IMG/VR virus record: IMGVR_UViG_3300032246_002140
Coordinates: 1-33,213 of that record
Origin: a virus
Length of the DNA: 33,213 nucleotides
Direction: 5' to 3' (one strand)
The notes below the pieces were generated by a model, which was given only the letters and a program-made list of their open reading frames with translations, made no database searches and was not told where the DNA came from. Shown in pieces: positions 4,032-33,213 of the stretch (position 1 is the stretch's first letter; each line of letters begins with the position of its first letter). The translations under genes and the position numbers were made by a program.

Positions 4032-5555
4032 ATGGAATTGACTTTTACAGCAGATACTGAAAGCCGGGCAACCAAAGTGCCATTGGTTACAAACCAACCA
4101 CTTGGTTACACGGTATTGAGCAGCTTTACTGACTCATCCATTTCAGTTACCGAAGACTCCGCACTTGGAGTCGCTGCATTCTTTCATGGAATCCGGATAG
4201 TTTCCGAAACAGTCGCCACCTTGCCATTGAATGTCTATAAACGAACCGGTGATGATGGAAGAAAACTCGCGGTAAATCATCCTGCATTTGATCTTCTGCA
4301 TGATTCCCCAAATCCTGAATCTACAGCAGCAGCTATTCGCGGTGGTCTTCAGGCCCAAGCCATGCTGCACGGAAACTCATTCGCTGAAATTGAATGGAAT
4401 GATCCGGAACTTAGAGACTATCCAATTGCAATCTGGCCATTGTCCTATGACACGGTCAACGCTTGGCGTGATGATAACGGTCAACTCTTTTATCGCATTC
4501 AACCACTTGGTGGTGATTATGTCGATATGGATCCCCGTGACATTTTGCACTATCGTGGTTTGGCATTGGATGGTTTTTGGGGAAAATCCATTCTCAGAGT
4601 TGCAAGAGAATCCTTGGCACTCGGTCTTACCTATGATCGTCATGCCGGTAAATTCTTTGGCAATGGTGCCAAACCCGGAGTCGTGATTAAACATCCCGGC
4701 AGACTCGGTGAAGAAGCGGTCAAACGACTTCGTGAGGGGTGGGAGCGGATTCATAAAGGCATTGAAAATTCCGGCCGTGTCGCCATCCTTGAAGAAGGTA
4801 TGGATGTCTCCGCTTTTACAATCAACAATGATGACGCCCAGTTTCTTGAATCCAGAAAATTCACTATCGAAGAAGTGGCAAGATGGTTGAACATATCCCT
4901 AAGCAGACTAAGGGTTTCCGGAGCGACTGCATTCACAAGTCCTGAAGATGATGCCATTGATTATGTCGTCAATACGGTCAGACCTTGGCTCGTCAGGATT
5001 GAACAGGAGAACAATAAGAAACTGTTTCCCGGTGGAAAGTATTTTTGTGAGCACGCAGTCGAAGGATTACTTCGCGGAAATATCGCAGCCAGATACCAGT
5101 CCTATGCGGTCGCAAGGAACTGGGGTTGGTTCTCGGTTAATGACATTCGCAAACTTGAAAACCTTCCTGCCATTGATGGTGGCGATGCTTATATGCAACC
5201 ACTTAACATGGCCGCACTTGGTCAAGCAACCGGGCCAGCAACAAATCCTGTCAGCGAACCAGCACTTGTCGCTGTCGATCCTACATCACCTTTGCCACCT
5301 GTTTCCAAACCGGTCGAGCCTGTCGCACCACCAACTGACATTTCATCTACTGCACTTAACGGTGCACAAGTTGCAAGTCTACTTGAAATTGTCTTGCAAG
5401 TATCCCAAGGACTTCTTACCAAAGAGTCTGCAAAAGCACTTGCATCCGCGGCATTCCCAACACTTAGCATTGACATTTTGAACCGCATTTTTGATCCGGT
5501 CAAAATTCAACCGCAACCAACAGACCCAACACAATCCGCGGAGATTCCAAAGTGA
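4032..5555 (+). CDS. Portal protein (HK97 family)
   Basis: The dodecameric portal forms the DNA gate at one capsid vertex. The 507-residue protein has family features: LPLNVYKR near 58-65, LLHDSPNPE (about 85-93), QAMLHGNSFAEI (about 110-121), the HYRGLALDGFWGKS stretch (about 174-187) and FFGNGAKPGVV near 209. The C-terminus after about residue 400 is Pro/Val/Ala-rich (for example PVSKPVEPVAPP) and is probably disordered. AGAGG lies 6 bases before ATG 4032. It follows terL and overlaps the protease start by 4 bases (GTGA). Confidence 0.95.
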   Translation: MELTFTADTESRATKVPLVTNQPLGYTVLSSFTDSSISVTEDSALGVAAFFHGIRIVSETVATLPLNVYKRTGDDGRKLAVNHPAFDLLHDSPNPESTAAAIRGGLQAQAMLHGNSFAEIEWNDPELRDYPIAIWPLSYDTVNAWRDDNGQLFYRIQPLGGDYVDMDPRDILHYRGLALDGFWGKSILRVARESLALGLTYDRHAGKFFGNGAKPGVVIKHPGRLGEEAVKRLREGWERIHKGIENSGRVAILEEGMDVSAFTINNDDAQFLESRKFTIEEVARWLNISLSRLRVSGATAFTSPEDDAIDYVVNTVRPWLVRIEQENNKKLFPGGKYFCEHAVEGLLRGNIAARYQSYAVARNWGWFSVNDIRKLENLPAIDGGDAYMQPLNMAALGQATGPATNPVSEPALVAVDPTSPLPPVSKPVEPVAPPTDISSTALNGAQVASLLEIVLQVSQGLLTKESAKALASAAFPTLSIDILNRIFDPVKIQPQPTDPTQSAEIPK

Positions 5556-6136
5556 TCAAAGAAACCCGATTCGTTGAATTAAGGGCTTTAACTGTCAATC
5601 AGGAATCGAAACGAATTGTCGGAGTTGCGGCAGCTTATAATACTTTGTCCGCAGATCTTGGTGGATTCAAGGAAAGAATCGCGCCCGGTGCCTTCACAAG
5701 ATCCTTGCAGGAAAATGACATTCGCGCCCTGTATGATCATGACAGCGGAAAAATACTTGGAAGAACTTCCGCAAGCACTTTGCAACTCAGTCTGACAGAT
5801 ACCGGATTGGAGTTCGCTTTGACTCTGCCAAATACCAGCTACGCGGCTGATCTTGCAACCCTTATGGCTCGTGGCGATGTCGCTGCTTGCAGCTTTGGAT
5901 TCTATACAAGAAAACAATCTTGGGGGCCTCGTGAAAAAGAGTCCGGATTAAAAGTCCGTATTCTTGAGGATGTAGACTTGCGGGAGATTTCCATCGTGGG
6001 AGATCCTGCATATCCTGTCGGCACTTCCGCCGCTTTGCGGTCGCTTTCCGAATGGCGATCCAAGGTTTCCCTAGTTCGGAATCGTGGTTTGTTTTCTTTC
6101 TTTCAACGGCGAATGCCAAGGATCAAGAATGTCTAA
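5552..6136 (+). CDS. Prohead maturation protease (HK97 gp4 / peptidase U35 family)
   Basis: This is a serine protease that trims the capsid protein scaffold during prohead maturation. The 194 residues begin at a GTG codon overlapping the portal stop. Family signs are IVGVAAAYN (22-30), ERIAPGAF (41-48), the likely catalytic H63 in LYDHD and S114 in ACSFGF, followed by DLREISIVGDPAYP with a conserved acidic residue near 145. Its position between portal and capsid is the canonical HK97 order. The last 8 bases overlap the capsid start. Confidence 0.93.
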   Translation: MIKETRFVELRALTVNQESKRIVGVAAAYNTLSADLGGFKERIAPGAFTRSLQENDIRALYDHDSGKILGRTSASTLQLSLTDTGLEFALTLPNTSYAADLATLMARGDVAACSFGFYTRKQSWGPREKESGLKVRILEDVDLREISIVGDPAYPVGTSAALRSLSEWRSKVSLVRNRGLFSFFQRRMPRIKNV

Positions 6137-7451
6137 AACGGAATTGTTGAATACGCGGTCTCAATTCATGGAACAATGGGAAAATATTCTCGCCATTACG
6201 GAACGGGAATTGACTCCTGAAGAAACCCAGATGATTGACGACCTCAAGGCAAAAGTCGATGACATCGACAACAGACTTAAATCCCTTGAAACTACCGAGG
6301 CAGAGGAACCACCAGCCGAAGCATCCGCGCCTCCAGCACCTGCGAAAAATTCTCGTCCTATTGAAGACCTCAGGAATGAGCACGCACGACGACAAACCCG
6401 GAAAGTCAATCCTGCTCCCGGCTATGTCCGCGATTACAATGATCGTCAAGCCACCAGAGATTCTGCAATGGCTTTTCGTGGGTGGTGCCTTGGTCGTGAA
6501 GCGACTGAAGAACAGCGCGCTGCGGCACATAGGGTCGGCCTAAACCTTGATGGTCCTTTGACTGTCAACTTGAATCCTACTGAAGAACAACGCGCACAAT
6601 CTACCGCCGTTGGTGCCGGTGGTTATACCATTCCCCAAGGGTTTCTTGCGGAACTGGAAAAGAAGCGAGCCTTCTTTAATAACCTTCGTACCGTCGCAAG
6701 GGTGATTCGCACTTCAAGTGGCAATCAAATGCCCATGCCAACGGTAGATGATACCGGTGTTTTGGCAGCTCAAGTCGCCGAAAATACCGCAACCGCAGCT
6801 GCAGACTTTACTGTTGGTCAAGTCATGTTTGGTGCCTACACAATCAAGTCTGTAGTTACCTCATCCCTTGAACTTCTGCAAGACTCAGGACTAAACCTTG
6901 GAGCCATCGTTGGTGAGCTTCTCGGTGAAAGACTCGGTCGCCTTGAAGCCCAAGCCTTTGCGGTAGGAACTGGTACGGGCCAACCGCAAGGAATTGTCAC
7001 CGGTGCGAGTGCAGGAAAGACGACTGCCGCCGCAACCGCAATTACTGTCAATGAACTTTATGATCTTGTAAACTCGGTTGATATGGCATACCAGTCAACC
7101 GGTGCATTCATGATGAACCAGTCCATTTGGACTTACATCCTGAAACTGCAGGATCTACAAGGTATCAACCTTCTCCAACGAGTTATTGGCTACGCTGAAG
7201 GTGCACAACCAATGCTCTTTGGCAAACCGGTAATCATCAACAACAACATGGAAGCATCGCCAACTACCGGTAAAGTTACCGCTATCTTTGGTGACTTCTC
7301 CAAGTTTTATATTCGTGATGCAGGACCAATCATCATTCGTCGTTCGGATGATTTCCTCTTCACTTCCAATGCAGCTGCATTCATGGCAACTGAAAGAATC
7401 GACTCTCGTGTCGTTCAATCTGCTGCCATCAAAAAGCTCAGCCAAGCCTAA
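6129..7451 (+). CDS. Major capsid protein (HK97 fold)
   Basis: This is the main shell protein, 440 residues from ATG 6129. That start has AAGGA six bases upstream and gives the usual MSKTELLNTR opening; the longer frame from 6084 lies inside the protease gene. Residues 1-75 are charged and helical (a delta-domain scaffold with ELTPEETQMIDDLKAK), then a Pro/Ala-rich linker (about 75-90). The fold proper starts after roughly residue 150, consistent with removal of the N-terminus by the adjacent protease. GGYTIPQGF (about 161-169) and the GTGTGQPQGI strand are typical of the family. A strong terminator follows immediately. Confidence 0.95.
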   Translation: MSKTELLNTRSQFMEQWENILAITERELTPEETQMIDDLKAKVDDIDNRLKSLETTEAEEPPAEASAPPAPAKNSRPIEDLRNEHARRQTRKVNPAPGYVRDYNDRQATRDSAMAFRGWCLGREATEEQRAAAHRVGLNLDGPLTVNLNPTEEQRAQSTAVGAGGYTIPQGFLAELEKKRAFFNNLRTVARVIRTSSGNQMPMPTVDDTGVLAAQVAENTATAAADFTVGQVMFGAYTIKSVVTSSLELLQDSGLNLGAIVGELLGERLGRLEAQAFAVGTGTGQPQGIVTGASAGKTTAAATAITVNELYDLVNSVDMAYQSTGAFMMNQSIWTYILKLQDLQGINLLQRVIGYAEGAQPMLFGKPVIINNNMEASPTTGKVTAIFGDFSKFYIRDAGPIIIRRSDDFLFTSNAAAFMATERIDSRVVQSAAIKKLSQA

Positions 7452-7465
7452 GATTTACCACATTG

Positions 7466-7489
7466 AAACCCGGAGTCTTCTCCGGGTTT
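7466..7489 (+). terminator. Rho-independent terminator after the capsid gene
   Basis: A perfect 10-bp stem (AAACCCGGAG / CTCCGGGTTT) with a TCTT loop is followed by a T-rich run (CTTGTTCTTCTTTATTT). It lies 15 bases after the capsid stop. It probably makes the highly expressed capsid mRNA end here, with read-through needed for connector and tail genes. Confidence 0.85.
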
Positions 7490-7520
7490 CTTGTTCTTCT
7501 TTATTTCAGGAAACAACGAA

Positions 7521-7730
7521 ATGCAGAATAAATACAGGGTTCTTCAGTCCATCGTTGGCACTTCACCTTTGACTGGTCAGGAAATATCCTATCGCCCCGG
7601 TGAACAGATCGAATGGGATGAAAAGGAAATTCCAGCCATGATTGAAGCCGGTATTCTCGCACCTGTCGTGCGAACAATGGAAACGCCAGAATCAGTCAAA
7701 CCAAAAACAAAACACAAGGAAACCAGATAA
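7521..7730 (+). CDS. Small head-region protein, unknown
   Basis: This 69-residue protein lies between capsid and head-tail connector genes. AGGAAA lies about 7 bases before ATG 7521; an in-frame upstream codon at 7491 would fall in the terminator tail and is less likely. The sequence RVLQSIVGTSPLTGQEISY then a segment ending in IPAMIEAGILAPV resembles the short pre-connector proteins found at this place in many HK97-like phages, but I cannot assign a function. The C-terminus is Lys-rich. Its stop is directly followed by the connector ATG. Confidence 0.75.
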   Translation: MQNKYRVLQSIVGTSPLTGQEISYRPGEQIEWDEKEIPAMIEAGILAPVVRTMETPESVKPKTKHKETR

Positions 7731-8273
7731 ATGGGTTTGCCCACTCTGTCTGAAGTCAAACTGCATTTGCGAGTTGATGGTGATCAGGAAGATTCCTTGA
7801 TCCTCTCTTTAATCGCGTCTGCAGTTGAACACTTTGAACAATCGACCCGCAGAGTATTGGCTCGCAGAACCATCGTTCAAAAACAAAATGGTCTTTTGTC
7901 GCGCGACATTATCATGCTTGAAAAAGGTCCGGTAACCTCTGTCACTTCATTGACAATCAGAAAAGACGATGGCACCTTTGTAACCATTCCACCAACAGAT
8001 TACATTGTCAATTGCGGCCAAACAGAAACAATCCCACTACTGGCACTCAGAACAAATGCACAAATACCACAACCAGATAATTATCCCGGTTCTGTCGTAG
8101 TTACCTATGTTGCCGAAACAACCGATATTCCACAATCAATTAATGCCGCGATCAAATTACTTGTCGCCCATTGGTACGAAAATCGTCAAGCAGTTGGTCC
8201 TACCGGTGGTGGCGAAGTTCCTTTGGCATATTCATCCATTGCCACCAAATACTTGTGGGGTGCTTACCTTTGA
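7731..8273 (+). CDS. Head-tail connector (gp6-like adaptor)
   Basis: The 180-residue protein opens with LPTLSEVKLHLRVDGDQEDSLI, the standard N-terminus of HK97 gp6-like connectors (phage_connect family), which form a ring below the portal. AVEHFEQSTRRVLARRT and the closing AAIKLLVAHWYENRQAVG also fit the family. It starts directly after the preceding stop and overlaps the next gene by 4 bases (TTGA). Confidence 0.88.
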   Translation: MGLPTLSEVKLHLRVDGDQEDSLILSLIASAVEHFEQSTRRVLARRTIVQKQNGLLSRDIIMLEKGPVTSVTSLTIRKDDGTFVTIPPTDYIVNCGQTETIPLLALRTNAQIPQPDNYPGSVVVTYVAETTDIPQSINAAIKLLVAHWYENRQAVGPTGGGEVPLAYSSIATKYLWGAYL

Positions 8274-8611
8274 AAATAGGCGACTTGCGGCATTATGTCG
8301 CACTACAATCTTACAATGATTCAACCGATGCCTATGGTAAAACAATCAGGACATGGGAGACTTATGCAACTGTTTGGGCCCAAGTTACTCCCACTACCAA
8401 TTCTGAATCCATCAACGGTTTGCAACTCAATTCGTCTACAACTCATGCAGTCCTGATTCGTTATCGTGACGATGTTCAATCCAATCATCGCATCCTTCAT
8501 GGATCAAGGATCCTCAACATTCAAAGCGTCAGAAACCTTGATGAAATGAAAATCGCCCTTGGCATCGTCTGTCAGGAATCTTGCGATATGTCCTCAGGGA
8601 TTCCCCAATGA
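8270..8611 (+). CDS. Head closure / head-tail joining protein (SPP1 gp16-like)
   Basis: A TTG start at 8270 overlapping the previous stop gives a 113-residue protein beginning MKIGDLRHYVALQ, which is exactly where family members begin (Phage_H_T_join). Later hallmarks are TWETYATVWAQVTP, VLIRYRDDV and ILHGSRILNIQSVRNLDE. These proteins close the portal channel and bind the tail. ATG-initiated extensions upstream run antiparallel to family expectations and were discarded. It overlaps the next gene by ATGA. Confidence 0.88.
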   Translation: MKIGDLRHYVALQSYNDSTDAYGKTIRTWETYATVWAQVTPTTNSESINGLQLNSSTTHAVLIRYRDDVQSNHRILHGSRILNIQSVRNLDEMKIALGIVCQESCDMSSGIPQ

Positions 8612-9366
8612 TCAGGGTTTCAACGCGACAGGTGGAACAGGAATTCAAGGAATGGTTGCATTTTGTCAGCATTGATGCCAGATCAGCAGAAACAAAACGG
8701 GCCTTTGCCAATGTCCTCAAATACGGAATGAAAGCCGTAGAGAAAAGAGCCAAAGCATTAGCCAAACCAAAAAGAAAACTCCGCAAAAGAAAAGGATTCA
8801 CTCCACCACCAAAAAGAACCGGAATGCTTCGCAAAAGTTTTCGTGTCAAAAGCGGAGTCGCGAAAAAGGGAAAAGGATTGCCTTATGCCGTTGTAGGTCC
8901 AAGTAAAAAAGTCTCAGCAGAAATGAATGTCGGCGGCCGTACCATGTTAGTCAAACCATCCAAGTATGCACACTTGGTCGAGTTTGGATTTATGGCCAAG
9001 CATAGAAAGAAAACACAAAAAGCACCCAAGAGAAAACTACTTGGTCACACAGTCGAAACTTTTAAAGTTTCGCGCCCTCGTCGTGGTTCCTTGCAACACA
9101 CCTTGAAACAATTCACCAAAGGTGCAAACAGATTATCTTTTGGAAAGTTATTCCATCTGTATGCCAAAATTCTTACTCTGTTCGGTAAAGGATCCACTTG
9201 GGTTCCCGGCCAATATATTCTTGAAAGAGCATACAAGGAATCGACTGGACAAATTAAAAGTGGTATCATGGATCGTATGGGTGCAGAAGTAAAAAAGCTC
9301 TTTGCAAAAGTCGCAAAGAGAAAAGCAAAGAAAGCAGCACTTGACGCTGCGAAAGGACCAAAATAA
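8608..9366 (+). CDS. Neck/tail completion protein (HK97 gp10 family), long and Lys-rich
   Basis: Start 8608 overlaps the preceding stop (ATGA), giving 252 residues. RTGMLRKSF (about 71-79), a central AEMNVGGRTMLVKPSKYAHLVE region and YAHLVEFGF mark the HK97 gp10-like family. It is longer than the usual 120-180 residues: extra lysine-rich segments (KRKLRKRK near 55-62, KKTQKAPKRK near 130-139) and a C-terminal helix rich in Lys/Ala suggest nucleic-acid contact or insertion. The function is in head-tail completion, inferred from family and position. Confidence 0.8.
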   Translation: MIRVSTRQVEQEFKEWLHFVSIDARSAETKRAFANVLKYGMKAVEKRAKALAKPKRKLRKRKGFTPPPKRTGMLRKSFRVKSGVAKKGKGLPYAVVGPSKKVSAEMNVGGRTMLVKPSKYAHLVEFGFMAKHRKKTQKAPKRKLLGHTVETFKVSRPRRGSLQHTLKQFTKGANRLSFGKLFHLYAKILTLFGKGSTWVPGQYILERAYKESTGQIKSGIMDRMGAEVKKLFAKVAKRKAKKAALDAAKGPK

Positions 9367-14944: not shown

Positions 14945-16762
14945 ATGCCTTACATCATTGCCGATCGCATCAAGGAAACAACTACCAAAGAAGGCATTGG
15001 CCCAATCATTCTTGATGGTGCCACGAAGTCCTGTCTGCCATTCTCATCGGCCATGTCTGTTGGCGACAAATGCTCTTATACAATCGTATCGAAAACCGCG
15101 GATGAATGGGAAACAGGACTTGCAACCTATTCCGCGCCCAACACTTTGACACCAACACAAGTAATGACGAGCAGTAATAACAATCAGCCGGTTGTTTTTA
15201 CATCTGGTCCAAAAGATGTCTTTATGGGTCCAACAAGTTGGAACCTGCCAAACTTTAATCCTGAAACTTTCACCATATCAAATGCCAATACCGTTACAGC
15301 AATTACTGTTGAATCAGGTAATGGCAACAATCTTACTCTTGCAGCAGGAAATGGAATCGGTACCGGTGCTGGTGGCAATATCGTTTTGCAACCCGGAACA
15401 CAAGCGACAAGTGGTGGCAATGGTATTTGTATCATTCAGGGAATGACAGTAGGAACAAGTAAAGGAGACAACTCAAATCTAGTCCTTGGTCTGGGTGCTC
15501 TTAACTCATTAGATCCCGGCATAGGTAATATCGCCATTGGAGCATTTGCTTTAGAAAAATCAACTTCTAATGAAACGATCGCAATTGGAATTTCTTCAGG
15601 TGGAAGAGGAACACTAACTCACGACTCTTCTATTTTGATTGGTAGCAACACTGCAACTAATGGAGTAGCGAATAATTCTGTTGGTATTGGTAGCGGCACT
15701 TTACGCGCTGGCGGAACAGATACTGTTTCTATTGGTGTTTATTCGGGAAGAACCAAAACAGACAAATCTGTACTAATTGGTCGTTCTGCGGGATACAACA
15801 CAGGCAACGAAAACATTTGCATAGGATATCAATCTGCTTACAATTCTTCCGCATCAACCAAAAGCATTTATATTGGAAGCGCAAACTATTACGGAACTAT
15901 TCAAGCTGGATCCAATTCCATTGGAATTGGCCACTATCAACCACTAATAGAATCAGATACAATTTTAATAGGAAATTATGATACAAAAAAATTCATCATT
16001 GGAGCCCAAAGCATTAGGGCGTTACAACCTGTTAACTCAGCTACAGTTACTGCCATGTATACTTCTTTTGAAACGCTAATCATAAATTACGATAGTAGTG
16101 GACAATCTTTATTTAAAATGGGAGACATAGTTTCAATTACTGGAAACCCAAATCCAGAATTGAATTTTACAAACAAAACAGTTACTATGGCTGATATCGG
16201 TCAAGTCGCTTTTAATTATACAGGCCCTGCAATTAGTGACTATAGTCCTTGCACTCTTGTAAAAACAGCTACCGGTAATCCCTTTACAATCTATGCTGGT
16301 GATGGATCTGGTGGCGGCAATGGTGGCAACGTTGTTTTGCAACCCGGTGGACATGGAACAACTGGTTTCAATGGGGCGGTGGTCGTAAATGGTGTTTTGA
16401 AAGTATCCGGGTTTCTTTCATTTGCATCTTCATCTGAAGCACTGTCAGCCCCCACGAATAATTTTGCACTAAGTACAGCGGCATTTCAAAGGATCAATTG
16501 CACGGTCGCATCGACTGTCACCGGAATCGCGCCACCAGATGGCGGATACCATGAAAACGGCCGAATCATTAACCTGTACAACATTGGAACTGCAAACATG
16601 ACATTGGCTCATAACAGCACTTTGTCGATTTCTGACAACAGATTTTTTTGTTCAACTGGAGCCAACATTGTCGTTGCTCCAAACCAAAGAGTCGTTTTGA
16701 TTTATGATTTAATCAGCAACGGTAGCGGTCTCCAAGGGTGGCGAGTTTCCAACATTCACTAG
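14945..16762 (+). CDS. Tail fibre / receptor-binding protein with YadA-like beta-roll
   Basis: A 605-residue protein with AAGGGA ahead of the ATG. The N-terminus (ADRIKETTTKEGIGPI, then SFSSAMSVGD-like and EWETGLATYS) is a common tail-fibre attachment module. Residues about 185-350 contain at least ten repeats with a core [ST]-x-x-I-G (AIGAFAL, AIGISSG, VGIGSGT, VSIGVYSG, VLIGRSAG, ICIGYQS, IYIGSAN, IGIGHYQ, ILIGNYD), the pattern of trimeric YadA-like head beta-rolls that bind surfaces. A GGNIVLQPG-type module occurs on both sides of this block (about 146 and 461). The C-terminal 120 residues form a separate beta domain. The repeat block is visibly richer in A/T than its flanks. Confidence 0.85.
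   Translation: MPYIIADRIKETTTKEGIGPIILDGATKSCLPFSSAMSVGDKCSYTIVSKTADEWETGLATYSAPNTLTPTQVMTSSNNNQPVVFTSGPKDVFMGPTSWNLPNFNPETFTISNANTVTAITVESGNGNNLTLAAGNGIGTGAGGNIVLQPGTQATSGGNGICIIQGMTVGTSKGDNSNLVLGLGALNSLDPGIGNIAIGAFALEKSTSNETIAIGISSGGRGTLTHDSSILIGSNTATNGVANNSVGIGSGTLRAGGTDTVSIGVYSGRTKTDKSVLIGRSAGYNTGNENICIGYQSAYNSSASTKSIYIGSANYYGTIQAGSNSIGIGHYQPLIESDTILIGNYDTKKFIIGAQSIRALQPVNSATVTAMYTSFETLIINYDSSGQSLFKMGDIVSITGNPNPELNFTNKTVTMADIGQVAFNYTGPAISDYSPCTLVKTATGNPFTIYAGDGSGGGNGGNVVLQPGGHGTTGFNGAVVVNGVLKVSGFLSFASSSEALSAPTNNFALSTAAFQRINCTVASTVTGIAPPDGGYHENGRIINLYNIGTANMTLAHNSTLSISDNRFFCSTGANIVVAPNQRVVLIYDLISNGSGLQGWRVSNIH
15371..15396 (+). repeat. Direct repeat flanking fibre beta-roll, copy 1
   Basis: This 26-base stretch encoding GGNIVLQP matches 16322-16347 at 23 of 26 positions. 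The two copies bracket the A/T-richer receptor-binding block. Confidence 0.7.
16322..16347 (+). repeat. Direct repeat flanking fibre beta-roll, copy 2
   Basis: Second copy, encoding GGNVVLQP. The shared run GTTTTGCAACCCGG is exact between the copies. Confidence 0.7.
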
Positions 16763-19623: not shown

Positions 19624-19874
19624 CCAAGGAAATCGCGGCCCGTAGCCAAGCCGTTTAGCCAACCAATCGCTCCCGAATTTTAAAATCCGGGAGTTTTTTT
19701 TTGCAATCGTATCTCATTGCCACCAAAGGACTTACGACAAACCGGGGAAAATTCGCGGCCTGATTTTGCAGACTCCCGTTGCATTCCAATCGATCCCCTG
19801 CGATACTACTTAGACCAAGGCAGTCAGCCGCGGTACCCAACCAAAGGGGATTTGGTAAAAGAAGGATCAGAACC
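19624..19874. other. Intergenic region between late and early blocks
   Basis: It contains three copies of TAGCCAA (19621, 19643, 19656), the terminator at 19670-19702, and about 170 bases leading to the first small early gene. A promoter for the early block is expected here, but I cannot point to a clear -35/-10 pair. No tRNA-like fold was found. Confidence 0.6.
19670..19702 (+). terminator. Rho-independent terminator ending the late block
   Basis: CTCCCG and CGGGAG pair around an A/T-rich inner palindrome (ATTTTAAAAT), and a run of nine T residues follows. It lies about 50 bases after the last late gene. Confidence 0.9.
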
Positions 19875-20120
19875 ATGTCACGACAAACCAAGCAAAACAC
19901 AATCGACGAACTCTGCGACAAGCTGGTGTTCCAATACAACAGATTGACTGAAGCACGGGACGAACTGAACCACTTGGATTATTACCTAAGATCTTCCAAA
20001 TTCAATGAGGACACCACAGTCCAAGTATCCGATATCCTTTTGAGAATCCAAGACCTTAGGACAATCCTTTTTAGGCCGGTAGGACTTGGGTTTAGTCCGG
20101 CCGAACTTAAGACCAAGTAA
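19875..20120 (+). CDS. Small hypothetical protein, helical
   Basis: GAAGGA eight bases before ATG 19875 decides the start; a longer frame from a TTG at 19779 has no such site. The 81-residue product is charged and helical (DELCDKLVFQYNRLTEARDEL), suggesting a coiled coil. It is the first gene after the late-block terminator and its stop lies within the first copy of the ribozyme-bearing repeat. No family is recognised. Confidence 0.65.
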   Translation: MSRQTKQNTIDELCDKLVFQYNRLTEARDELNHLDYYLRSSKFNEDTTVQVSDILLRIQDLRTILFRPVGLGFSPAELKTK

Positions 20121-20215
20121 CCCTACTGATGAGTTCGCGGCGGCGAACGAAAAGGGCAGAAGCCCTTATAGGATGCACACTCTTTACACACAAGCAGGAG
20201 ATTTGATTATGACAG
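20119..20215 (+). repeat. 97-bp direct repeat, copy 1 (ribozyme + leader + start codon)
   Basis: It matches 20527-20623 at 95 of 97 positions. It spans the end of the upstream gene, a hammerhead ribozyme, a 40-base leader with an AGGAG site, and the ATGACAG start of the next gene. Both differences lie in the loop of ribozyme stem III. Confidence 0.95.
20122..20172 (+). ncRNA. Type I hammerhead self-cleaving ribozyme, copy 1
   Basis: All parts of the motif are present in order: helix I 5' strand CCTA (20122-20125); core CTGATGA (20126-20132); stem II GTTCGC-GGCG-GCGAAC (20133-20148); core GAAA (20149-20152); stem III AGGGC-AGAA-GCCCT closed by A15.1-T16.1; H17 = A at 20168; and helix I 3' strand TAGG (20169-20172). 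Both strands of helix I are perfectly complementary, as are stems II and III. Cleavage is predicted between 20168 and 20169, leaving a 40-base 5'-OH leader for the gene at 20209. Confidence 0.93.
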
Positions 20216-20526
20216 AAAATCAAACCATACCAGTAGCACATTCAAAATGTCTTTTCTGCGGAACAAAATGCAAGGTTACAAAAGACGGTGCCATATCAAA
20301 ACACGGCAGCAAACAACGGGGTGCGACCAATTCTGTTTTTTGTCCCGGTTCCAGTTTTCCTTGGAATGCAACAAATAAAGATCTCGCCAATAGTTTCCTA
20401 AGATTGGCAGATCGTCTTGAAGAAGTTGGTGCCAAATATGGGACCAAGGAAAGTGCTTGGTTCAACATCGGCCGGTTGTATCCAAATGACTTAAGAACAT
20501 TGGCGGAAAAATACTTGACCAAGTGA
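20209..20526 (+). CDS. Zinc-ribbon-like hypothetical protein between two ribozymes
   Basis: The 105-residue product from ATG 20209 has AGGAG eight bases upstream, within the repeat. An in-frame ATG at 20173, just after the cleavage site, would add 12 residues (MHTLYTQAGDLI). The N-terminal third has Cys at C14, C17, C21 and C45 (KCLFCGTKC ... VFCPGS) with a nearby H31, consistent with a small zinc-binding domain. The rest is helical (LANSFLRLADRLEEVGAKYG). Its message would be cut out as a 408-base RNA by the flanking ribozymes. The function is unknown. Confidence 0.7.
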   Translation: MTENQTIPVAHSKCLFCGTKCKVTKDGAISKHGSKQRGATNSVFCPGSSFPWNATNKDLANSFLRLADRLEEVGAKYGTKESAWFNIGRLYPNDLRTLAEKYLTK

Positions 20527-20623
20527 AACCCTACTGATGAGTTCGCGGCGGCGAACGAAAAGGGCGAAAGCCCTTATAGGATGCACACTCTTTACACACA
20601 AGCAGGAGATTTGATTATGACAG
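20527..20623 (+). repeat. 97-bp direct repeat, copy 2 (ribozyme + leader + start codon)
   Basis: Second copy of the repeat at 20119-20215, with the same position relative to the flanking genes. The upstream stop is TGA here rather than TAA, with two extra bases before the repeat proper. Confidence 0.95.
20530..20580 (+). ncRNA. Type I hammerhead self-cleaving ribozyme, copy 2
   Basis: Helix I is CCTA (20530-20533) with TAGG (20577-20580). The core is CTGATGA (20534-20540) and GAAA (20557-20560). Stem II is GTTCGC-GGCG-GCGAAC, and stem III is AGGGC-GAAA-GCCCT. Compared with copy 1 only the stem III loop differs (AGAA to GAAA), so all pairings and core bases are kept. Cleavage is predicted between 20576 and 20577. 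Confidence 0.93.
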
Positions 20624-20862
20624 TCAACGAATTGAAGATGGAACTAAAAGCCATCAATTCCAAATTGGATACAGTCAACGAATTGAAAAGCGAGTTGCAG
20701 TCTGCAAAAGAAAAAATGAATGCAGTAATGATTTGGACGGTATCAAGTGTCGTTCTGCATCTGTTTTTTCTTGCGGTGCTTTTCCAGATATTCAACTGTC
20801 CCGGTATCCGGATTATTACTACAGGCGGCGGTAACGGTTCCATCTTTACTGAAAGGCGATAG
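20617..20862 (+). CDS. Small membrane protein with coiled coil
   Basis: ATG 20617 follows AGGAG in the second repeat; an in-frame ATG at 20581 would add the same 12-residue leader peptide as in the previous gene. The 81 residues comprise a heptad-like helix (ELKMELKAINSKLDTVNELK) and one membrane segment (about 37-58, AVMIWTVSSVVLHLFFLAVL), then a Gly-rich tail. Possible host-takeover or superinfection protein. The function is not known. Confidence 0.65.
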   Translation: MTVNELKMELKAINSKLDTVNELKSELQSAKEKMNAVMIWTVSSVVLHLFFLAVLFQIFNCPGIRIITTGGGNGSIFTERR

Positions 20863-20869
20863 GTGTCAA

Positions 20870-21088
20870 ATGAATGAAATGAAATTTGGTCATCTTGAGA
20901 TTGGCGATGTCTTCTGTTTTCCATTGGAACACTATGACAATAAGGGTTTGTTTTACCGAGTCCGCCCAGTTTGTCCGATGGTGAAAACCTCAAAAACAAC
21001 TTGGGTCTATAAAGGTGAAGACGAACAACACACAGTTGAAACTGTCCGTGTCAAGGTTTTGAAACAATTACAGACTAGGGAGGTTTAA
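20870..21088 (+). CDS. Small hypothetical protein (72 aa)
   Basis: ATG 20870 is the first ATG after the previous stop and has AGGTG about 5 bases upstream. The product MNEMKFGHLEIGDVFCFP... resembles small phage proteins that begin with a 'GDxF' strand, followed by YRVRPVCPMV. It ends in KQLQTREV, the same last six residues as the following gene, because of a short repeat spanning gene end, ribosome site and next start. Confidence 0.6.
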   Translation: MNEMKFGHLEIGDVFCFPLEHYDNKGLFYRVRPVCPMVKTSKTTWVYKGEDEQHTVETVRVKVLKQLQTREV

Positions 21089-21094
21089 TTATGG
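21069..21094 (+). repeat. 26-bp junction repeat, copy 1
   Basis: It matches 21293-21318 at 23 of 26 positions. It covers the end of one gene (LQTREV stop), the GGAGG/GAGG ribosome site and the next ATG, so genes here have been exchanged or duplicated with their translation signals. Confidence 0.75.
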
Positions 21095-21312
21095 CCACGC
21101 CACTTGAGCTCAGAAAGGCACTCAGGAAATCCGGGCTGCCGTATAACATCATCAAAAGAGATGGATCATGGTATGTCTATGGCGGCGATTCCCATCAATG
21201 GAAAAGCACTTGCCTTTTCGCATCTACCTTGTCAGGGTTAAGTGCCAATCAATGGGTCAATGAAATTCGGGATTTGGCAAGCAAAGAAACACTACAGACC
21301 AGAGAGGTTTAA
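21091..21312 (+). CDS. Small HicA-like basic protein, unknown
   Basis: A 73-residue protein with GGGAGG before the ATG. The N-terminus LELRKALRKSGLPYNIIKRDGSWYVYGGD has the look of a small alpha-beta domain with a basic helix followed by strands. It somewhat resembles dsRNA-binding-like (HicA) folds, but the catalytic His is not convincing. It ends with LQTREV like its upstream neighbour. I leave the function open. Confidence 0.6.
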   Translation: MATPLELRKALRKSGLPYNIIKRDGSWYVYGGDSHQWKSTCLFASTLSGLSANQWVNEIRDLASKETLQTREV

Positions 21313-21318
21313 TCATGG
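21293..21318 (+). repeat. 26-bp junction repeat, copy 2
   Basis: Second copy, with the GAGG ribosome site feeding the gene at 21315. Confidence 0.75.
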
Positions 21319-21518
21319 CTAGTTACAAGATCATTCGTCACTATGAAAACGGTAAGGTTTCCAAAGTGATTCGCCGCGGTGTCACATTACACGATGCACA
21401 GTCGCATTGTCGTAATCCTGAAACTTCTTCAACCACGGCAAGATCTGAAGCGGCAGTTTGTCACACAAGAAAGTACGGTAGGTGGTTTGATGGATACACG
21501 GAGGACAAGAAAAATTGA
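21315..21518 (+). CDS. Small conserved phage protein (67 aa)
   Basis: The sequence MASYKIIRHYENGKVSKVI then RRGVTLHDAQSHCRNPETSS closely resembles a small protein seen in many phage early regions, with a strand-strand-helix layout and a conserved 'T-L-x-x-A-Q-x-H-C-x-x-P-E-T-S-S' stretch. It has no known biochemical function. GAGG lies ahead of the ATG in the junction repeat, and the stop overlaps a TTG start of the next gene. Confidence 0.7.
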   Translation: MASYKIIRHYENGKVSKVIRRGVTLHDAQSHCRNPETSSTTARSEAAVCHTRKYGRWFDGYTEDKKN

Positions 21519-28348: not shown

Positions 28349-28396
28349 TAAGACCACAATAAAGACCTTGCGAGTCTCATGTTAGTCAAAAAGCTA

Positions 28397-28441
28397 CCTC
28401 CGCTGTCTCTTATCAAAAGTTAAGGGTCGGCGGAGGGTTTT
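28397..28441 (+). terminator. Terminator-like hairpin after primase-helicase
   Basis: CCTCCGC (28397-28403) pairs with GCGGAGG (28430-28436), with an inner CTTA/TAAG pair, then GTTTTC. The loop is long and the T-run short, so termination is probable but not certain. Confidence 0.5.
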
Positions 28442-28527
28442 CAATTGAAGTATCTAAGAGATCCTAATGGGAGGAAATTGATCGTAAAGTGGTTGGTGAC
28501 AAGGGTTTGGGTACAGGGAAGACTTAC

Positions 28528-28564
28528 TTATATATATATAAAAAAAAAAAAATTATATATATTA
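28528..28564. other. 37-bp A/T-only tract
   Basis: Alternating TA repeats, then 13 consecutive A residues, then ATATAT-type sequence with no G or C. It would melt easily and stands directly beside the CTTNCCTATCTT repeats. Confidence 0.85.
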
Positions 28565-28701
28565 CTTCTTCCCTATCTTCACAGCCATCTTACCTATCTT
28601 CTCCATCTTACCAAATCTCTTGGTCTTTGTCTATCTCTTGATCTTGGAAAACCCAGAGAAAACTAATTTTGTCAGCTACCAAATTGGTAGGAAATGGAAT
28701 T

Positions 28702-28782
28702 GGCCTAGGATCGACGATCTTTTGCCAACTTGACCCAATTCCCGGTTTAAGGAAAATAATGCGGCAGAAGCGATCCTAGGCC
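28702..28782. repeat. 12-bp inverted repeat with 57-bp spacer
   Basis: GGCCTAGGATCG (28702-28713) is the exact reverse complement of CGATCCTAGGCC (28771-28782). Each arm contains the palindrome CCTAGG. It could form a long hairpin or serve as paired protein sites. Confidence 0.8.
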
Positions 28783-28922
28783 CCAAGGAATTGAAGAGGC
28801 CAGGGAAATCAAGGGAACAAATCCCTTCACCCACTTGGAACCGAGTTTCCATCTGTCGCCTCTGCCGGGGCCGTCTTACCACCAAAAACAAACTTCGCAA
28901 ATTTGGATAGACTTTGATTACG

Positions 28923-28941
28923 CCTGATGAATGACATCAGG
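28923..28941. other. Hairpin CCTGATG-AATGA-CATCAGG
   Basis: A perfect 7-bp stem with a 5-base loop about 135 bases before the sigma-factor gene. It has no T-run and may be an operator. Confidence 0.55.
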
Positions 28942-29075
28942 AAGATAATCCTGTATGTCTTTTGATGTCGTTGGATGAATGTGCTTTGAAAAATATTTGA
29001 CAACAAATTTGCATCAACTCGTCTTGCGAACAGCCGCCGCCTTTTGTAACCTTTTCGTTGGGAGGTGGCGAAAGA

Positions 29076-30887: not shown

Positions 30888-31623
30888 AATCAAAGAACTC
30901 CGGATGATTAAAGCATCCGCCTTGCAACCCAATCCCAAGAATTGGCGCACTCATCCGCACAAACAAAAGGATGCACTCAAGGATATTTTGAAGGAAGTAG
31001 GATTCAGTGGAGCCGTAATTGCACGGGAATTGGGTGATGGAAAATATGAATTAATCGATGGTCATCTTAGGGCAGAGACATCATTGAATCAGGAGATCCC
31101 GGTACTTGTCGTGGACCTCACAGAAGCCGAAGCAGACAAGATCCTTGCAACCCATGATCCATTGGGTGCCATGGCAGGAACCGACTTTAAAAAAGCAGAG
31201 GAACTATTCGCATCGATTGCAACCGAAAGCGAAGCACTCGCGGCAATGATGCAGGAAATGCTAGGTGATCAAACAACACTTGATGAAGACAAACCCGATG
31301 GCACCACACTTGCCAAGCTAACCATCGGTGGATATGAAACCAGACACAATGTCGCCATGGGTGAACGGTGGGAGATTCTCGGTAAGCATTCCCTACTTGT
31401 CACCGGTGTCATAAATGATTGGCCAACATGGATTCCACTACTTAGGGAAATGGGCGAGAGTACCATGTTTGCACCTTATGCCGGACCTTTGGCACTTCTT
31501 TCCTCCGCGGCACAAGTTCGCAGAATCTGTATCGTTCAACCTGTCCAGTATGTCGCTAACCTTATCCTTGATTGGGCAGAAGACACTTACGGAACTGAAG
31601 CAGTCGTAAAGGTCGGTGAGTAA
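30871..31623 (+). CDS. ParB-like protein with degenerate methylase-type C-terminus
   Basis: The N-terminal 110 residues are a ParB/sulfiredoxin-type domain: SALQPNPKNWRTHPHKQKDA, VIARELGDGKYELIDGHLRAE with D63-G-H-L-R67, and LVVDLTEAEADKILATHDP. Such domains are often fused to adenine methylases. Here residues 165-250 look like a collapsed remnant: WEILGKHSLLVTG resembles the 'W-x-L-G-x-H-x-L-L-x-G' opening and ANLILDWAEDTYGTEAVVK the closing helix of those enzymes, while the DPPY catalytic centre is absent. Its place directly before DpdA (TAATG overlap) suggests a role in DNA modification or its targeting. A later in-frame ATG (30904) is possible. Confidence 0.75.
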   Translation: MTIRNRIKELRMIKASALQPNPKNWRTHPHKQKDALKDILKEVGFSGAVIARELGDGKYELIDGHLRAETSLNQEIPVLVVDLTEAEADKILATHDPLGAMAGTDFKKAEELFASIATESEALAAMMQEMLGDQTTLDEDKPDGTTLAKLTIGGYETRHNVAMGERWEILGKHSLLVTGVINDWPTWIPLLREMGESTMFAPYAGPLALLSSAAQVRRICIVQPVQYVANLILDWAEDTYGTEAVVKVGE

Positions 31624-32456
31624 TGAATGCACCAGAATATTTTCTTGCCTGTGATTTGAACCTTGGTAAAATCGCAGCACTTGCAGGACACAAGTCAATC
31701 CTTGTGCCCGTCAACCTTATCAAAAAGAAAAGAGACATCGAAGACATCAAGCGGTGGGCCCATAGTGGAATCAAGATTATCATCGACTCCGGTGCATTTG
31801 ATCTTTGTGCCAAGCACTCGTCAAAGCACAATATCCCACTACAAAAAGTATTCGGCATGGCTCCGGAAAACATTGACGGATTCGCAAAGCTCTTTGAAGA
31901 CTTTGATGAAATCGCGCGCGAACTTCAGGACCATGTATTCGCGGTCATTGAAATTGATCTCGGTGGCAAGAAACGGAAAAGAGCCACAAGGCAAACCCTT
32001 GAAGATAAAGGTCTTAAAGTCTGTCCCGTAATCCATCCAATGCACGATGGGTGGGATTACTTGGATGAACTTGCAACCAAGTATGATAAAATCTTCGTTG
32101 GCAATCTCGTGGATGCCAATGTCGAAGACAGGGAAATTGCCATGGGTAAACTTATCTTGTGGCGAATAAAGAACCCCAACATATGGATTCATCTATTGGG
32201 AGTCACTCCGTCACCACTAACCACAGCCATGCCACCAAGCTCCGGCGATTCATCAACTTGGTACTCCTGTGTCAGACAGTTTCAGACTTGGCGAGCATAT
32301 GCCTGTTACGAAAGACTCGCGGGATTTGGTCGCGATATGGCCTATGTCCCAAAGTCGCCAGATCATAGTTACGAAAAAGCCAAACGAGTCGCCGCCCTAC
32401 AATATCGCGCACAGGAGCTCGGTATCCAACATTACTTCAAGGAGCTACTCAAATGA
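31623..32456 (+). CDS. dpdA: DpdA-like DNA guanine transglycosylase (7-deazaguanine insertion)
   Basis: DpdA enzymes, relatives of tRNA-guanine transglycosylase, swap guanine in DNA for a 7-deazaguanine. The 277-residue protein has TGT-like marks: IIIDSGAFDLC with D55-S-G-A-F59 (the DSGGF-type motif that holds the substrate base), VCPVIHPMHDGWDYL and KIFVGNLVD in the barrel, and GDSSTWYS with D209 in the DSxSW-like motif of this group. The TGT C-terminal CxCxxC zinc site is not visible, as expected for the short phage forms. It is coupled to the ParB-like gene and to the T-fold gene by overlaps, and queD, queE and folE lie in the same operon. Confidence 0.82.
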   Translation: MNAPEYFLACDLNLGKIAALAGHKSILVPVNLIKKKRDIEDIKRWAHSGIKIIIDSGAFDLCAKHSSKHNIPLQKVFGMAPENIDGFAKLFEDFDEIARELQDHVFAVIEIDLGGKKRKRATRQTLEDKGLKVCPVIHPMHDGWDYLDELATKYDKIFVGNLVDANVEDREIAMGKLILWRIKNPNIWIHLLGVTPSPLTTAMPPSSGDSSTWYSCVRQFQTWRAYACYERLAGFGRDMAYVPKSPDHSYEKAKRVAALQYRAQELGIQHYFKELLK

Positions 32457-32788: not shown

Positions 32789-33213
32789 TTGGCTACCTCA
32801 TCGCGGCCTGTGCGGCAAATGTCGTGGTCACAGTCTTTGGATATTCCGCACTTCCATTTACCGCATTCGCCATCATTCCTTTTGATCTCACCACAAGGGA
32901 TGTACTTCATGAACGGTGGCACGGTAATTGGCTGGCACTCAAAATGACCGCATTGGTAATTGCCGGATCTTTTCTTGCATGGTTATTTTGTAACGGATCA
33001 ACAGAGGTTTGTGTCGCATCGGCAATATCCTTTGCGGTCGCAGGTATCGTCGATTCTGTCATCTACCACATTCTGTCCAACAGAACAAAGTGGTTAAGGA
33101 TGAACCTCAGCAATGTCCTCTCATGCTCGGTGGACAGCATCTGTTTTCCCATGATCGCCTTTGGCACCTTGTCTCTTTCTTTGGCCTCTTCCCAAATCGC
33201 ATTGAAGATAATA
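32776..33213 (+). CDS. yhhQ: Queuosine-precursor transporter (YhhQ/VUT family), main part
   Basis: YhhQ proteins import 7-deazaguanine precursors (preQ0, preQ1) through the inner membrane. The window holds the first 146 codons; the last 23 codons and the stop lie at 15-86, giving about 169 residues. Marks of the family are AIIPFDLTTRDVLHERWHG (about 32-50), the WLRMNLSNVLSCSVDS stretch with the conserved N and DS, and four to six membrane segments. It is shorter than the usual ~220 residues. GGAG lies 8 bases before ATG 32776. It overlaps the T-fold gene by 13 bases and queD by 29. Confidence 0.88.
   Translation, partial: MLPVIGYLIAACAANVVVTVFGYSALPFTAFAIIPFDLTTRDVLHERWHGNWLALKMTALVIAGSFLAWLFCNGSTEVCVASAISFAVAGIVDSVIYHILSNRTKWLRMNLSNVLSCSVDSICFPMIAFGTLSLSLASSQIALKII
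33200..33213. repeat. Terminal 14-bp repeat, right copy (assembly overlap)
   Basis: Identical to bases 1-14. Removing one copy makes the transporter frame continuous across the junction. Confidence 0.9.

Follow-up and report, generated by a model that had tools for sequence, protein, structure and literature searches.

Organization of the locus

The window, by which we mean the whole 33,213-nt stretch of viral DNA that was analyzed, is recognizable as phage DNA from its genes for terminase, portal and major head protein. Within it, two hammerhead ribozymes on the same strand, 408 nt apart, surround a single ORF in a group of small genes (Table 1), which were called as ORFs with start signals rather than by trained prediction. 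A single nucleotide separates the TAA stop codon of the upstream gene (20118-20120) from stem I of hammerhead 1. Likewise, 3 nt separate the TGA stop codon of the gene between the hammerheads (20524-20526) from stem I of hammerhead 2. The terminator-like hairpin ahead of this gene group was recognized as an inverted repeat with a T run; the terminator scan did not list it.

Table 1. Features of the hammerhead locus, in window positions
Feature	Positions	Strand	Remarks
Terminator-like hairpin and T run	19670..19701	+	3' of the upstream gene block, ahead of the hammerhead gene group
Upstream gene, 81 aa	19875..20120	+	No confident family
97-nt repeat, copy 1	20119..20215	+	Hammerhead, leader, Shine-Dalgarno, start codon
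Hammerhead ribozyme 1, type I	20122..20172	+	Cut predicted at 20168|20169; held-out model R1, 30.0 bits
Leader 1	20169..20208	+	Predicted new 5'-OH end UAGGAUGCAC..., AGGAG, until ATG; from sequence
408-nt RNA freed if both ribozymes cut	20169..20576	+	Inferred from the two predicted cleavage sites
Gene between the hammerheads, 105 aa	20209..20526	+	CxxC...C motif
97-nt repeat, copy 2	20527..20623	+	Differs from copy 1 at two loop III positions (98% identity)
Hammerhead ribozyme 2, type I	20530..20580	+	Cut predicted at 20576|20577; held-out model R1, 31.9 bits
Leader 2	20577..20616	+	Identical to leader 1; from sequence
Gene 3' of hammerhead 2, 81 aa	20617..20862	+	Hydrophobic stretch

Each ribozyme is part of a direct repeat, spaced by 408 nt, whose unit also holds the 40-nt leader, an AGGAG and the ATG. 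A sequence-only reading of this locus had held that the two copies differ only in the stem III loop and that they have a leader and a start codon in common. Both claims are borne out, as the repeat contains no differences beyond the two in loop III and as leader and start codon fall inside it in both copies. The common leader and start codon are thus explained by one duplication of the 97-nt cassette, which, to judge from the 98% identity of the copies, is recent.

The 105-residue product had been described as zinc-ribbon-like. The CxxC...C motif can indeed be read, but the protein has no Pfam match and its PHROGs match is weak (E 0.028), so that the label goes back to the motif reading. No relative of this protein was found in named-phage DNA and protein searches or in an IMG/VR peptide search, and the named-phage searches returned nothing useful for the hammerhead region or for four cluster loci either. 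Five ORFs at 19875-21312 and the next ORF at 21315-21518 have no match in the close relatives of the window phage, and its terminase-matched relatives contain no hammerhead and hence no orthologous copy to align. The lack of both ORF matches and hammerheads in these relatives indicates that the locus is a variable accessory region, and that the element is not needed by the lineage of the window phage.

Elsewhere in the window, positions 1-14 and 33200-33213 both carry CATTGAAGATAATA, and these shared ends may mean that the record, though classed as linear, covers an entire genome, either circular or with terminal repeats. Genes of the 7-deazaguanine type are found at 58-1981 and 31623-32456 (PTPS/QueD-like, radical-SAM-like with a weak resemblance to QueE, GTP cyclohydrolase I and queuine tRNA-ribosyltransferase-like), which suggests modified phage DNA or RNA. 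The stretch from 28350 to 29050, between primase-like and sigma-factor-like genes, contains no convincing gene.

Predicted fold and cleavage sites

Both copies have the CUGAUGA and GAA core elements, and every position that defines a type I core is as expected (C3 U4 G5 A6 N7 G8 A9, G12 A13 A14, the A15.1-U16.1 pair and, as H17, the A that precedes the cleavage site). Three stems meet at this core: an open-ended stem I of 4 bp (CCUA/UAGG in both copies), a stem II of 6 bp (GUUCGC-GGCG-GCGAAC in both copies) and a stem III of 6 bp (AAGGGC-GCCCUU around a loop of either AGAA or GAAA). These motifs and their coordinates confirm the earlier assignment of two type I hammerheads with intact cores. 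A hammerhead pattern matches the window twice, as compared to 0.03 matches expected in shuffled windows, and the two matches, which are on the + strand only, are the two ribozymes and nothing else. The minimum free energy fold of each isolated 57-mer is the hammerhead (z-scores of -3.1 and -3.6). The two predicted cuts lie 408 nt apart, and their positions, as first proposed, are supported by the sequence, by the held-out covariance model described below and by comparison with other phages.

The stems had also been called fully paired. While all pairs are intact, stem I has just 4 bp and is predicted to compete poorly when long flanks are included. Stem III, and for the most part stem II, stay predicted in longer flanks. 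Stem I competes with other pairings, and its probability with 100 nt of upstream sequence is 0-0.27 by a secondary-structure prediction that is blind to tertiary contacts. In some context lengths the end of the upstream gene pairs with stem II of hammerhead 1 (20085-20150), and such modelled pairing could possibly link translation to cleavage.

The short stem I and its competing folds would fit a relic, that is, a duplicated and inactive hammerhead-like leader that has been kept just for its ribosome-binding site. A relic would also be consistent with the absence of the element from close relatives and with the recent duplication that left the copies 98% identical. However, every core base and every stem pair is intact in both copies, with the changes confined to a loop, and the same element recurs with covarying stems in many phages, albeit in a set that was filtered for structure. 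We therefore regard a relic as unlikely.

Assignment to the hammerhead family

Given that the predicted fold is that of a hammerhead, its behavior in Rfam deserves comment. A scan of the window at the Rfam gathering score gives no match. When 86 bases are scanned alone, the best match is copy 2 to RF00163 (Hammerhead_1) at 16.9 bits, well below the cut-off of 34 bits, even though the window copies have the type I topology and the identical catalytic core of that family. A score below threshold had been named in advance as evidence against the ribozymes, and formally that is the outcome. The Rfam hammerhead models at their set thresholds, however, also miss the evident hammerheads at eight further phage loci, indicating that the Rfam model is insensitive for phage ribozymes of this kind. 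The Rfam threshold is a detection aid and not a defining property of a hammerhead.

We built our own covariance model on 28 hammerheads, all of them from phages other than the window phage. This held-out model assigns 31.9 bits (E 8e-8) and 30.0 bits (E 3e-7) to the two window copies, and the next-best match in the window scores 9.8 bits.

Hammerheads in other phages

A pattern with the stem I of the window (CCUA...UAUAGG) matches 12 IMG/VR viral contigs, whereas the reversed pattern matches none. Across 85,000 bacterial and archaeal genomes (257 billion bases) it has one match, in Neptunomonas, which is without a stem II hairpin and which we treat as chance. IMG/VR, searched with the exact sequence and with a stem-II pattern, yielded no close copy of the window hammerhead; the sole stem-II pattern match, L067, was rejected, as it is not followed by any ORF start that has a ribosome-binding site.

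A second pattern constrained the core plus some of stem III, with stem I left free. Among the 86 distinct matches listed, stem I has at least 4 bp in 68 and 0-2 bp in 18, and there is none with 3 bp. This bimodal distribution tells real hammerheads from chance matches without selecting on stem I. Structural filtering then left at least 91 distinct hammerheads at 64 loci (roughly 80-90 ribozymes, from about 60 phage contigs). A few of them resemble chance hits that have no leader gene. The sample is pattern-based, comes from the matches listed and is biased to CUGAUGAG cores and C-C stem III. The filtered set contains 95 two-sided changes with 99.7% of cells paired, counts that are partly built in because the set had already been filtered for pairing. 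The genes 3' of the hammerheads belong to no family common across phages, and we have thus dropped the idea of a function tied to one gene.

In L119 (2365) and L131 (5715), the hammerhead has a far longer stem III of about 56 nt that holds internal repeats. In G036 (L231), positions 15561-15601 contain a hammerhead-like core and stem II with no matching stem III or return strand of stem I, upstream of two intact hammerheads; this is perhaps a decayed copy.

Position relative to gene starts and stops

The commonest layout among these phages begins with the stop codon of one gene and a hammerhead; a spacer of about 25 nt that includes a ribosome-binding site then leads to the ATG of the next gene. 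For 60% of the 91 hammerheads listed, the region 15-60 nt past the cut contains a start codon that is served by a Shine-Dalgarno sequence and opens an ORF of 40 aa or longer, as compared to 6.6% of random positions drawn from the same loci; without the Shine-Dalgarno requirement, the values are 71% and 20%. The commonest spacing from cut to start in this set is 22-27 nt. For the gene before the hammerhead, a frame of 60 or more codons ends between -40 and +7 relative to the core in 74% of cases, as compared to 30% in a control in which the ribozyme segment was implanted at random, and 27 of 80 upstream stops begin 7-10 nt before the core, which is the edge of stem I. This enrichment of stops and starts places the hammerheads at gene junctions. 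The window fits the same geometry, with stops at -8 and -10 and with ATGs 40 nt past the cut.

The most extended example is a phage (G023, IMGVR_UViG_3300006924_000032) with nine hammerheads at 4448-8718, one before each of nine small ORFs. They lie about 20-34 nt ahead of the ATG, and several of the upstream ORFs end within stem I. In this series (locus L230), the leader start TTAATC is invariant while stems II and III are varied. A similar observation was made at L154 (6034-8020), where five hammerheads occur in 2 kb; all five leaders have the ribosome-binding stretch TGCAATGGAG, and stems II and III differ.

The sequence-only reading had considered a tandem pair that frames a coding segment to be unusual. 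This is not supported, given the nine serial hammerheads in one phage and the report of Perreault et al. 2011 that hammerheads flank single prophage genes, for which they proposed the cutting of long transcripts into single-gene mRNAs (PMC3088659). Several of those tandem sets cleave in vitro, and an A. tumefaciens set does so in E. coli (PMC3088659). Like the window, the prophage clusters consist of several same-strand hammerheads that flank single small phage genes. Unlike them, the window pair arose from one recent duplication that included leader and start codon, and the present survey goes further in that the geometry of stop, ribozyme, about 25 nt and ATG was measured over many phages. 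The "HHphage" hammerhead of haloviruses HF1 and HF2 resembles the window in its position just before a phage start codon. It differs in being a core variant from an archaeal host and in its shorter distance to the start codon, which in HF2 is 13 nt (PMC3088659) as opposed to 40 nt in the window. The HF2 transcript has its 5' end within 3 nt of the cut (PMC3088659).

Cleavage ahead of a gene could in principle lower its expression. As in glmS, the cut would expose a 5'-OH leader to host nucleases; by analogy, in B. subtilis RNase J1 breaks down glmS RNA that bears a 5'-OH (PMC3328962), and the phage host may possess a similar enzyme. Such an off-switch seems improbable to us, since ribosome-binding sites follow the cut at tight spacing, which suggests that translation of the cleaved RNA is intended, and since the HF2 transcript that starts near the cut is a major species (PMC3088659).

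A possible circular RNA

The 408-nt RNA of the window could also be imagined to close after cleavage by both ribozymes, so that the 105-aa gene would be carried on a circular mRNA. Closure would occur either because the CCUA of the 3' hammerhead pairs with the UAGG at the 5' end of its own RNA and the ends religate, or because the host supplies a ligase, for instance RtcB, that joins them. The two stems I are identical, and the CCUA of copy 2 pairs with the UAGG that copy 1 leaves behind, so that religation is possible in principle. Of 29 pairs of neighboring hammerheads (from other phages plus the window), 59% can cross-pair over at least 4 bp, as compared to 8% of random pairs, although related phages are entered more than once in this count. 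Moreover, neighbors have stem I in common (0.75, versus 0.38 between phages), while their stems II and III are barely more alike (0.59 and 0.61) than those of different phages (0.56 and 0.55). Retrozymes and viroid-like circular RNAs likewise have two direct-repeat hammerheads with compatible ends and a potential unit-length RNA. The window differs from these in its DNA phage context, its internal ORF and the ribosome-binding site at each cut, and there is no evidence here of a circle, reverse transcription or rolling-circle replication.

The circular mRNA that had been thought conceivable therefore survives as far as end pairing is concerned, but other observations weigh against it. Whole records were scanned as well, and of the 36 with a match, 31 have a single hammerhead; release of a gene-length circle thus cannot be the shared function. 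About 40% of neighboring pairs are unable to cross-pair. Common leaders would explain a common stem I equally well, as would an upstream stop codon inside stem I, which is the case in the phage with nine copies. A search for RtcB, the one ligase family covered, found no match in 12 records (the window and 11 other hammerhead phages), though a host enzyme could serve. Finally, Perreault et al. sought circles and found none (PMC3088659). We consider it very unlikely that the 105-aa gene is expressed from a circle. The broader proposal is that many phages use hammerheads to punctuate entire operons, at up to nine serial junctions, and that the single-gene RNAs released between neighbors with a common stem I, as in the window, religate into translatable circles or swap leaders; this, too, strikes us as very unlikely.

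Probable cutting of phage mRNA at gene junctions

The presence of ribozymes exactly between genes in many unrelated phages suggests cutting into single-gene messages, and not circles. The cutting of polycistronic phage RNA at gene junctions by hammerheads in gene leaders is, in our judgment, probably the best explanation for these elements. As the polycistronic RNA is transcribed, the ribozyme would fold right after the upstream stop codon, and in the window its cut would fall 40 nt ahead of the start codon of the following gene. This would leave the upstream message with the two hairpins of the ribozyme and a 2',3'-cyclic phosphate at its 3' end, whereas the downstream message would open with a 5'-OH, followed by a short leader that contains its ribosome-binding site. 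Each gene would thereby obtain its own mRNA, with a stability and a translation independent of its neighbors. A processed mRNA had been suggested for this locus from the outset, and the sequence, the held-out model and the comparison with other phages are consistent with it. Two hammerheads are found here because the cassette of ribozyme, leader and start codon was duplicated.

The sequence, structure, position and duplication of the two ribozymes are directly established, as is the recurrence of the geometry in many phages. From these we infer cleavage in cells and an effect on expression. The short stem I, which structure prediction finds to be a poor competitor in long flanks, argues against junction cutting, as do the lack of hammerheads in the terminase-matched relatives and the decay that a 5'-OH end can bring about, as in glmS RNA of B. 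subtilis (PMC3328962).

A 2017 review described the role of phage and bacterial hammerheads as an open question (PMC6155905). Relative to the open-access literature, gene-flanking phage hammerheads have been known since 2011, and the recurrent junction geometry is a useful addition. The Rfam hammerhead models at their set thresholds overlooked the ribozymes in all eight phage loci tested. The geometry survey yields a short list of phage loci for direct testing, one of them with nine copies, and the shared arrangement of stop, ribozyme, about 25 nt and start points to one simple job for these hammerheads, namely the cutting of mRNA at gene junctions.
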